Virus record (IMG/VR): IMGVR_UViG_3300042355_000294
Location: 1-28,806 of that record
Strand: one strand, 5' to 3'
DNA length: 28,806 nucleotides
DNA from: a virus
The stretch's first letter is position 1. Each line of letters begins with the position of its first letter. Below the pieces are notes generated by a model. That model saw only the letters and a program-made list of their open reading frames with translations. It ran no database searches and was not told the origin of the DNA. This document shows positions 22,883 to 26,270 of the stretch, in pieces. The position numbers were made by a program, and so were the translations under genes.

Positions 22883-24181
22883 TTAGAATGTAGGTGATGG
22901 GTCGGTGAACCGGCAGAACTGGCCGTCGTAATGTAGTTTGACGTGGCCACATTCGCCGTCTCTCTGCTTGGCGATGATGATGGCAGCTTCGCCGGAAGGT
23001 TCAGTTCTGTCACGGTTTAGAAGTGCCACCAGGTCACTGTCGCGCTCCAGTTGTCCGCTATCTGCTAGGTCAGATAGCTTCGGTTGGCGGCCCTTTTCTT
23101 TCTCGGATTCCCGGTTGAGTTGCGCCAGGGCTAGCATAGCCACACCTGTCTGCACGGCGATCTCCTTTAACTTGCCGCTGACTTCGGCAACCTCGTAGGT
23201 GCGCTTCTCTGATCGGTCGGCTGCTTTGACCTTCTGGATATAGTCGACGATCACAAGGCGCACCTTGTGTTTGCGGACAGCCCGTCTGACATGGGCAGTG
23301 ATGCTGGAGATGCTGTGGCTGCTTGGTCCATCGAGGAACCACAAGGGGCTGTTTGCGATCTTGGCCGAGGCCGCGGTCATGGATCTCATGTCGCCATCAG
23401 TCAGGTCGCCAGACTTTAGGTTCTGCATCGGGATGCTTCCAATGGTCGAGACCATGCGTCGAAAGATGGCCTCTCGGGACATCTCCAGGCTGACGAATAG
23501 GGTCGGCACCTTGTCCTGGATGGCTGCCTTGTGAGCAATGGCGATTGCGATGGCGGTCTTTCCGATGGAAGGCCGGGCTGCAAATAGTGCCATCTCCCTA
23601 AGCTGAAGGCCGTCGGTCTTGTGATCGAACCAGTGAAAGCCTGTGGCGATTCCGGAAAGTGTGCCCTTACGGTTGAACCGGTCCTGCATTTGGTCGATGA
23701 AGTTGCCGGCAACCTGTTTGCTGGTTGATAGAGTCTCTCTAGAGACCTCAATGCTGAGCCCTGATTCGGCATTAGAGACGATTTGATCGGGCTGGAGGGT
23801 CAACATAGCGGACTCACGAATCAAACGGTCCCCAGTGTCTCTGAGCTGACGTCGATGGGCGCACTCGGTGATGCCATGGATGTAATAGGGCAGGTTTGCC
23901 GGCGATGGGCAGGCCTCCATGGCTTGGTCCCAGATCTCAAAAGGCATTGGTAATTGGCCGTAAGCCTTCTTCCATTCCTTACCGAGTTCTCCAATGGTTG
24001 GCTGCCGGTTCTCCTGCACCATTCCTCGGAGGATATCGAAGGTTAGTCGGAGGTTGTCATTCAGGATCCAGTCGCTTCTGACGTCAGCCAGAGCATCAGC
24101 GCAGGTGTCGACAGATCCGGTGAGGCAGGCTCCGATCATTCCCAACTCGTCGTCTTGTGGATAAAAAACATCGTTACTCAT
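22883..24181 (-). CDS. dnaB: DnaB-like replicative helicase (432 aa)
   Basis: The protein has an N-terminal helical domain (about residues 1-120) and a RecA-type ATPase domain. Walker A is ARPSIGKT at 202-209, SLEMS follows at about 230, and Walker B is VIVDYIQ. A DSDLVALLNRD segment near the C-terminus matches the DnaB family. It would unwind the phage fork after loading by the initiator encoded directly upstream. ATG at 24181 overlaps the initiator stop as ATGA. A TTG five codons upstream is rejected. Confidence 0.93.
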   Translation of the reverse strand: MSNDVFYPQDDELGMIGACLTGSVDTCADALADVRSDWILNDNLRLTFDILRGMVQENRQPTIGELGKEWKKAYGQLPMPFEIWDQAMEACPSPANLPYYIHGITECAHRRQLRDTGDRLIRESAMLTLQPDQIVSNAESGLSIEVSRETLSTSKQVAGNFIDQMQDRFNRKGTLSGIATGFHWFDHKTDGLQLREMALFAARPSIGKTAIAIAIAHKAAIQDKVPTLFVSLEMSREAIFRRMVSTIGSIPMQNLKSGDLTDGDMRSMTAASAKIANSPLWFLDGPSSHSISSITAHVRRAVRKHKVRLVIVDYIQKVKAADRSEKRTYEVAEVSGKLKEIAVQTGVAMLALAQLNRESEKEKGRQPKLSDLADSGQLERDSDLVALLNRDRTEPSGEAAIIIAKQRDGECGHVKLHYDGQFCRFTDPSPTF

Positions 24182-24906
24182 GCGCTTAACCTCCAATCAA
24201 TCTCCTTTTTAACTGCTGGTTGAGTACATCCAGACTGGCTTGATTCGTCCCTCCTCAATTTCCATCCGGTAAGAGATGATTTCCACGAGTGCATTTTGGT
24301 TTTACCAACAACCCAGTTTTTTGACTCGTAGTAGTTGATGAACTTTTGAGCCTCAATCAATGGCAGCTCAATTTCTGCGCATCTAGCCTCAACCTCTTGC
24401 AAAGTAGGTGGGACAAAACGAACACGGGGCGACTTCGGAGCCATTGTCTTTTCTGTCTTCTCTTCTCTGTCTTCTCTATCGGTTACCCCATGGGTTATCT
24501 GTGGGTTAACCTGATTCGGTTCTGGGTTAACCTGTGGGTAACCCGTGGGTAACCCGTGGGTTTTCTGTGGGTTACCTGTGGGTTTTTTAGGGCGTCCACC
24601 TTTGCCTCCGTTTGACCAGGAGGCTATCAGGCCGGCATTCACCTGGTCCCATTGGTGGGCTACCAGGTGGCCGTTTTCTACTCGGCAGAAGGTTTGCAGC
24701 ATGGCCGACCAAAACAAATCAGCATCACCAGGCCATCGGCAAACTGATGAGAGTATGACCGGGCTCCAGTCTGGAAAAATGTTGGTCTTCCTTGTTTGGC
24801 AATGTGACCACAGCCGGATGACGTAATTAGGTGCTGACTCAGTTTCCAAAAGCCTCATCAGTAGACGGGTCTTCCAGTGATCTAAGAAGTCGGGTTCGAT
24901 TATCAT
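24178..24906 (-). CDS. Replication initiator/helicase loader-like protein with iterons inside the gene (242 aa)
   Basis: The N-terminal 100 residues (FLDHWKTRLLMRLLETESAP, WPGDADLFWSAMLQTF) look like a winged-helix domain of the phage O/DnaD type. A Lys/Pro/Asn linker (residues about 104-142) follows. The C-terminus (PPTLQEVEARCAEI, KFINYYESKNW, MHSWKSSLTGWKLR) resembles the DnaT/DnaD-type C-terminal helices of helicase-loading proteins. The linker is encoded by the 11-bp iteron array at 24478-24587, so gene and origin probably coincide, as with lambda O. It directly precedes dnaB. A large stem-loop lies 15 nt before the ATG. Confidence 0.8.
   Translation of the reverse strand: MIIEPDFLDHWKTRLLMRLLETESAPNYVIRLWSHCQTRKTNIFPDWSPVILSSVCRWPGDADLFWSAMLQTFCRVENGHLVAHQWDQVNAGLIASWSNGGKGGRPKKPTGNPQKTHGLPTGYPQVNPEPNQVNPQITHGVTDREDREEKTEKTMAPKSPRVRFVPPTLQEVEARCAEIELPLIEAQKFINYYESKNWVVGKTKMHSWKSSLTGWKLRRDESSQSGCTQPAVKKEIDWRLSA
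24478..24587 (+). repeat. Iteron-like array GTGGGT[T]AACC, probable replication origin
   Basis: Nine related units with core GTGGGTWACC occur on the plus strand. Five start exactly 11 bp apart (24534, 24545, 24556, 24567, 24578). Others are at 24501, 24490, 24522 (degenerate) and 24478 (degenerate). An 11-bp period is one helical turn and not a multiple of three, so the repeat is not explained by the encoded protein. A purine/pyrimidine-asymmetric tract (24445-24480) lies next to it. The location inside the initiator gene mirrors lambda ori within O. Confidence 0.75.
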
Positions 24907-25853: not shown

Positions 25854-26270
25854 TTATGTGTGCTTACCGCAATGGATGCACGTCTTGTAGTGGCGCGGCT
25901 TCCTAGGCAATGGCTCGACTTCCAGCCATTCGCAGATTTCACGGTAGCTCTTCCAGCCGAATGACCAGATGGCGCCCGGGTACAGGTGGCCGGACTTGTA
26001 GAGGGCCATGGCCTCGTCCTTGGTGTGGATGCAGAGATCCTCCACGATGCGGAAGGTACGATTTGAGAACGGGAAGCCCCAGAGGGCCGTGATCTCTTCC
26101 ATCTCCTTGGCGCCTTTGATTACCTGGTGGATGCGCTGCCTAGTGAGCTGCAGCCTGTCGCCGATCTCCTGCAGGGTCATGCCCTCGGAGCGCATTTGGA
26201 CTACCTGAGGCACCATCGGTGCCACCTTCATGTAGACCTTCTTGGGCTTGGCCTCAGAAAGGGATGTCAT
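25854..26270 (-). CDS. Helix-turn-helix protein with Cys/His tail (138 aa)
   Basis: Residues about 24-54 (VQMRSEGMTLQEIGDRLQLTRQRIHQVIKG) form a sigma-region-4-like helix-turn-helix. The C-terminal half is Trp/Tyr-rich (YPGAIWSFGWKSYREICEWLEVEPL) and ends CIHCGKHT, possibly half of a zinc site. It overlaps the ssb gene by 17 bp (ATG at 26270, ssb stop at 26254). It could be a transcription regulator or an origin-binding protein; nothing decides between them. Confidence 0.65.
   Translation of the reverse strand: MTSLSEAKPKKVYMKVAPMVPQVVQMRSEGMTLQEIGDRLQLTRQRIHQVIKGAKEMEEITALWGFPFSNRTFRIVEDLCIHTKDEAMALYKSGHLYPGAIWSFGWKSYREICEWLEVEPLPRKPRHYKTCIHCGKHT

Follow-up and report, generated by a model that had tools for sequence, protein, structure and literature searches.

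Plasmid iterons usually lie outside the initiator gene. Those of phage lambda lie within it: in our control analysis of lambda O, the four annotated iterons fell mid-gene, encoding residues 117 to 144, and were followed by a purine-rich, strand-asymmetric tract. The lambda iterons are inverted repeats of 18 to 19 bp, bound by O dimers and spaced 20 to 24 bp apart, with a strand-asymmetric tract behind them (PMC5043065). Stx phages have six iterons compared to four in lambda, with 13 additional amino acids in O (PMC7466680). For phage P1, the abstract of a study of repL and oriL reports that origin function resides within the initiator gene and that it is impaired when an AT-rich stretch is recoded synonymously (PMC9948254). 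In oriC of E. coli, low-affinity DnaA nine-mers lie 2 bp apart, an 11-bp pitch, and hold a packed row of initiator (PMC6727663).

Here, we analyzed an array of short repeats within a putative replication initiator gene on a 28,806-bp virus record; we refer to this whole stretch of DNA as the window. We infer binding, opening, and origin function: very probably, the array consists of iterons bound by the initiator and makes up half of a lambda-like origin inside a gene. Our search of the open-access literature found no description of this array, and a search for a plasmid match returned none.

The initiator gene and its neighborhood

The minus strand of the window carries head, portal, protease, and terminase genes, then genes for DnaB, the 242-aa putative initiator, and an exonuclease. 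The features discussed below are as follows.

22883 to 24181, minus strand: DnaB-type helicase gene (Pfam DnaB_C, E = 3e-72), with a 4-bp overlap with the initiator stop
24178 to 24906, minus strand: putative replication initiator gene, 242 aa, assigned from PHROG, family, and model, with a winged-helix-like N-terminal domain, an array-encoded linker, and a helical C-terminal domain
24592 to 24906, minus strand: N-terminal domain, residues 1 to 105, presumed to bind the iterons, conserved in 125 loci and in initiators that consist of this domain only
24481 to 24591, minus strand: putative iteron array coding for residues 106 to 142, with ten WWCC cores as direct repeats in one orientation, toward DnaB
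24445 to 24480, minus strand: purine tract GATAGAGAAGACAGAGAAGAGAAGACAGAAAAGACA, directly behind the array and beginning GATAGA, presumed unwinding region
24181 to 24417, minus strand: C-terminal domain, presumed helicase-recruiting part, with unrelated domains in its place in relatives

The identification of the 242-aa protein as a replication initiator, made in the original prediction, is supported by PHROG matches, a structural model, and the adjacent DnaB gene. The protein matched phrog_15768 (E = 2e-18), phrog_9474 (replication initiation protein, E = 4e-4), and phrog_28809 only; lambda O matched phrog_277, phrog_2365, phrog_678, and others, and the O-like phrog_678 was matched by the C-terminal domains of some relatives. 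Pfam gave no match to the window protein at an E value of 1, hence it is without the PF07120 (DUF1376) N-terminal domain. The AlphaFold2 model of the N-terminal domain (pLDDT 86.5) is helix rich with a two-strand hairpin and appears winged-helix-like. Its top viral fold matches were a replisome organiser (E = 2e-5) and a primosomal protein (E = 9e-5), followed by more replisome-organiser and DUF1376 proteins. Among PDB folds, the model found only weak MarR/CRP-type matches (best E = 0.14), and a PDB sequence search with the domain returned no match. The domain lacks close relatives among solved structures, so the winged-helix assignment is one of fold class.

Of 61 distinct relatives that could be tested, 54 have a homologue of the window DnaB downstream of the initiator. 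Cellular genomes gave relatives only in Pontiella and in two further assemblies, of Pontiellaceae or Verrucomicrobia; we regard the host assignment that this suggests as weak. Upstream of the exonuclease gene (25854 to 26270, minus strand), the window encodes a small helix-turn-helix protein resembling Sigma70 region 4 (Pfam E = 2.5e-6).

The proposed analogy to lambda O proved apt. The lambda iterons and the window array (about residues 106 to 142) occupy nearly the same codon position, mid-gene between the DNA-binding and C-terminal parts of the initiator. In both, a strand-asymmetric tract lies directly behind the repeats, a neighboring gene serves the helicase, and unit number varies in frame. 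Sequence and initiator family differ, as was also predicted: unlike ori-lambda, the array consists of short directional direct repeats (11/12-bp units with core AACCCA, 5 to 11 per array) spaced about one helical turn apart, the window protein has no O-family PHROG match, and the phage has a different N-terminal domain and its own DnaB instead of lambda's P. By analogy, the best reading is that the array would work like ori-lambda with an initiator from outside the O family. With iteron plasmids (P1, RK2, and F), the array shares directional direct repeats near helical phase and presumed monomer binding (PMC5043065), as well as the general iteron-origin trait of a direct-repeat cluster, conserved as DNA, in or next to the initiator gene; unlike theirs, its unit is only ~11 bp and is translated. 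The initiator of P1 repL is unrelated, and the abstract describes no iteron array (PMC9948254). The oriC nine-mers differ in protein and motif and lie outside any gene.

The pyrimidine-rich tract predicted alongside the array is present on the plus strand (24480 to 24445) and is the purine tract GATAGAGAAGACAGAGAAGAGAAGACAGAAAAGACA read from the opposite strand. The 42-bp tract adjacent to the array has 40% GC, compared to 58% in the window, and is purine rich rather than very AT rich. Across the family, AGA accounts for 117 of 124 Arg codons in the purine tract and 37 of 334 in the C-terminal domain, counts that are phylogenetically non-independent. Such strand asymmetry beside the repeats, seen here as purine tract and AGA bias, is a lambda-type trait. 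The cumulative GC skew that had been suggested as a check showed no clear inflection and is uninformative.

Structure of the array

As predicted, five GTGGGTWACC-like units on the plus strand start exactly 11 bp apart, at 24534, 24545, 24556, 24567, and 24578 (three of the five are perfect). Independently, TRF reported a period of 11 with 8.5 copies at 24491 to 24584 and scored no other tandem array of the window as high. The coding-strand consensus of the unit is roughly GGTWACCCA. On that strand, WWCC cores start at 24584, 24573, 24562, 24551, 24540, 24528, 24521, 24507, 24496, and 24484, with successive spacings of 11, 11, 11, 11, 12, 7, 14, 11, and 12 bp. The array had been placed at 24478 to 24587 with nine units; it is real, and its limits and unit number are better given as 24591 to 24481 with ten cores. 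Because one unit is off register and some steps are 12 bp, exact 11-bp spacing holds for only half of the window array. Strict 11-bp spacing therefore did not hold up as the defining trait; steps of 12 bp are also common among close relatives.

The longest chain of 11- or 12-bp steps in the window is formed by six cores of the array, and the maximum in 300 Markov resamples of the window was four. Lag-11 identity of the array was 0.57, compared to 0.41 ± 0.04 in 5,000 synonymous recodings, none of which reached 0.57, and 0.46 ± 0.03 when the gene's own synonymous codons were permuted (p = 4e-4).

A pitch of 11 bp would also suit an array bound by host DnaA, given the low-affinity 9-mers placed 2 bp apart in E. 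coli oriC (PMC6727663), and one array unit, TTACCCACA, is a single mismatch from a DnaA box. Against this, the best DnaA-box score per array is only 6 to 8 of 9, and the constant part of the units is AACCCA. The window does contain a perfect DnaA box, TTATCCACA (24156 to 24164, minus strand), at the start of DnaB, which is probably there by chance; none of 61 relatives has one near the array. We consider DnaA binding highly unlikely as the function of the array.

Selection on the DNA of coding arrays

We scanned IMG/VR with the initiator protein and a profile of its N-terminal domain, which matched 125 loci and yielded 38 distinct linkers after filtering; the protein search placed 52 viral loci in the initiator family. 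To compare synonymous change, we used 15 genes that share one C-terminal domain type. At identical residues, the linker showed 6.4% synonymous differences and the purine tract 8.4%, compared to 36.9% in the N-terminal domain and 37.7% in the C-terminal domain, and linker-sized windows elsewhere in the 15 genes never fell below 33%. Amino acid identity in the linker (86%) was no higher than in the N-terminal domain (89%). The 38 linkers contain 286 cores, compared to 195 ± 7 in 500 recodings, and 121 of the gaps between cores are 11 bp, compared to 31 ± 5 (maximum 47) in the recodings; a further 74 gaps are 12 bp. Outside the linker, no chain exceeded three in 455 kb from 62 distinct loci.

In two distant relatives (L051 and L124), the 11-bp steps pass through all three codon frames; in L051 (54% identity in the N-terminal domain), all eleven units keep the 11-bp step exactly. 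Linkers most often measure 84 or 117 bp, lengths that lie three units (33 bp) apart. A point against the iteron reading is that, in about half of the relatives' linkers, the longest 11/12-bp chain is only three because a central unit is off register. Loss of the 11-bp spacing in close relatives had been named as grounds for rejecting the prediction; such relatives exist, as L113 and L090 keep the gene and use runs of 12-bp steps, which stay in frame, and spacing is thus a poor test. These 12-bp arrays encode the in-frame amino acid repeat RDNP, that is, pitch is traded for frame. We read 11 to 12 bp as one helical turn, tolerated within limits. Steps of 11 bp drift from a 10.5-bp helix, which would fit close packing in a row better than binding along one face.

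Synonymous suppression, the recoding null, three-frame cycling, 33-bp length steps, and above all the non-coding copies described below bear out the original prediction that the DNA itself is selected with a period independent of codon frame. Selection on the array as DNA is strongly supported. The comparison with homologous phages that had been suggested came out the same way, as the repeats persist with different linker frames, with different C-terminal domains, and even without coding.

Among the relatives, several unrelated C-terminal domains are found behind the linker and tract. The locus could accordingly be a recombination hot spot that shuffles such domains onto one N-terminal domain, with the linker serving as shared homology, the switch falling just behind linker and tract, and recent exchange accounting for the low synonymous change. 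The motif is nevertheless kept in distant relatives with other spacers and frames, in other N-domain families, and in genes that encode the N-terminal domain only, and we find this explanation quite unlikely. Shuffling of C-terminal domains at the linker is probably a consequence and not the function of the array.

Arrays outside coding sequence

Among the matches listed in a protein-blind scan, ten contigs (L141, L142, L159, L166, L170, L190, L192, L196, L199, and L202) have an N-domain open reading frame, 35 to 41% identical, that stops 1 to 17 bp before the array. These non-coding arrays keep the 11-bp pitch; the shortest have five cores and others six, a difference of a single 11-bp unit. 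The tract behind them is GATAGATAGA, or GATAGAGTAGA in L142 and L196, and in most of the ten contigs a DnaB-like open reading frame begins ~150 bp after the array. The ten non-coding arrays are the strongest evidence that DNA, not peptide, is being kept.

They also decide against the view that a proline-rich, low-complexity linker is maintained at the protein level and that codon choice makes its DNA look repetitive. Such a view has some basis, as the linker is rich in NP, TH, and EP and probably disordered, and the codons for N, T, P, and H favor AACC-like words to the extent that 195 cores persist in recoded linkers. However, periodicity exceeds that expected from recoding and codon permutation, synonymous change in the linker is suppressed sixfold, and persistence of the array without coding in ten contigs refutes the protein linker as sole cause. 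We regard this explanation as extremely improbable.

Between the non-coding array and DnaB, the ten contigs carry a hairpin-like inverted repeat (e.g., GATAGATAGAATATCTATC). Together with a fold of the array region somewhat better than that of shuffled sequences (z = −2.8), this could point to an RNA structure controlling translation in the initiator-DnaB message. Against this, repeats of the GGTTAACC kind are imperfect palindromes, which may suffice to explain the folding; there is also free variation in spacers and unit numbers, and one core occurs across many gene contexts. The chance that RNA structure explains the array is accordingly very slight.

Distribution of the array

The query of the protein-blind scan was a run of four WACCCA cores spaced 11 bp apart, and we examined 80 loci among the matches listed. 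A GGRP-type motif lies upstream of the array in 62 of these 80; at random positions, its rate is 3.3%. Units have diverged in 79 of the 80, again among the matches listed. Control scans gave 45 stretches at 10 bp (motif in 21), 17 at 13 bp (motif in 3), and at least 120 at 12 bp, where 15 of 80 examined had the motif and 32 of 80 were tandem repeats of identical units; totals of the 11- and 12-bp scans are lower bounds and not comparable with each other.

Of 75 proteins that carry or abut 11-bp arrays among the matches listed, 36 matched primosomal, 31 replication-initiation, and 21 O-like profiles (the categories overlap); a few unrelated proteins are among the 75. DUF1376 (PF07120) was found in 31 of the 75, and the record of phage zth2-2 has the array within a DUF1376-like gene. 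After the 11-bp cores, several DUF1376 loci (L136, L139, L143, L157, and others) have a coding-strand tract that is G poor and AACCA rich (TAACCATAAACCA), possibly a counterpart of the purine tract.

This association with initiator genes runs contrary to a plasmid-type centromere, or par site, with short repeats. The parC site of R1 does have short direct repeats near 11 bp. Among the window open reading frames scanned, we found no match to ParM, ParA, or ParR, and we put the probability of a par site at close to nil.

Because the scan preselected an AACCCA-type motif, it is silent on the repeats of other initiators. Vibrio phage 1.079 and Flavonifractor phage Chenonceau have different repeats at the equivalent place: their initiators (L130 and L132) combine a window-type C-terminal domain with other N-terminal parts, and their linkers carry 21-bp TGACA/TGTCA and 12-bp CCTTTACAG repeats, respectively. 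Among isolated phages that share the C-terminal domain or DUF1376, the repeats of Vibrio phages 1.079 and 1.183 (21 bp) and Chenonceau (12 bp) exceed most recodings. This generic period test did not single out Mx9, Seahorse, Ab105-1phi, Rb1, or even lambda itself, and it is thus insensitive to repeats that have diverged or are inverted. In Vibrio phage 1.183.O (L256, 1861 to 1890), a CRISPR spacer is annotated in the DUF1376 gene near the 21-bp periodic linker; it is possibly a misread repeat array.

Discussion

In the origin that we propose, the gene for the initiator would itself contain the initiator-binding half. The winged-helix-like N-terminal domain would bind as monomers to successive AACCCA cores, about one turn apart and in a single orientation, so that the monomers line up in close packing. 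Strain from this row may open the neighboring strand-asymmetric purine tract (GATAGA...), and the C-terminal domain, or a partner, would recruit DnaB from the next gene. The array keeps a fixed place behind the N-terminal domain. Because it is also read as protein, it encodes a flexible linker rich in Pro, Asn, and Thr; the three frames of AACCCA give NP, TH/TQ, and EP/KP.

Degenerate AACCCA cores every 10 to 12 bp may be common to N-domain groups that are unrelated in sequence (the window family, DUF1376, DUF6291, and DnaD/HTH), either through exchange of domains at a constant site or through reading of AACCCA by some shared factor that is not the initiator. We put this forward tentatively, as a possibility somewhat short of even. 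Which protein reads AACCCA is now a directly testable question. If the shared-iteron reading is true, the 'NPxxTQxxP' linkers that are widespread in these phage proteins are translated origins. The arrays would also explain the low-complexity NP/TQ/EP linkers of DUF1376-type proteins as translated iterons. These phages also offer a natural experiment on dual coding: arrays held to a reading frame vary in length by 33 bp or take 12-bp steps, and arrays outside coding sequence stay at 11 bp and gain or lose one unit at a time. The array may provide a way to recognize, from DNA alone and independently of protein, where many uncultured phages are likely to have their origins.
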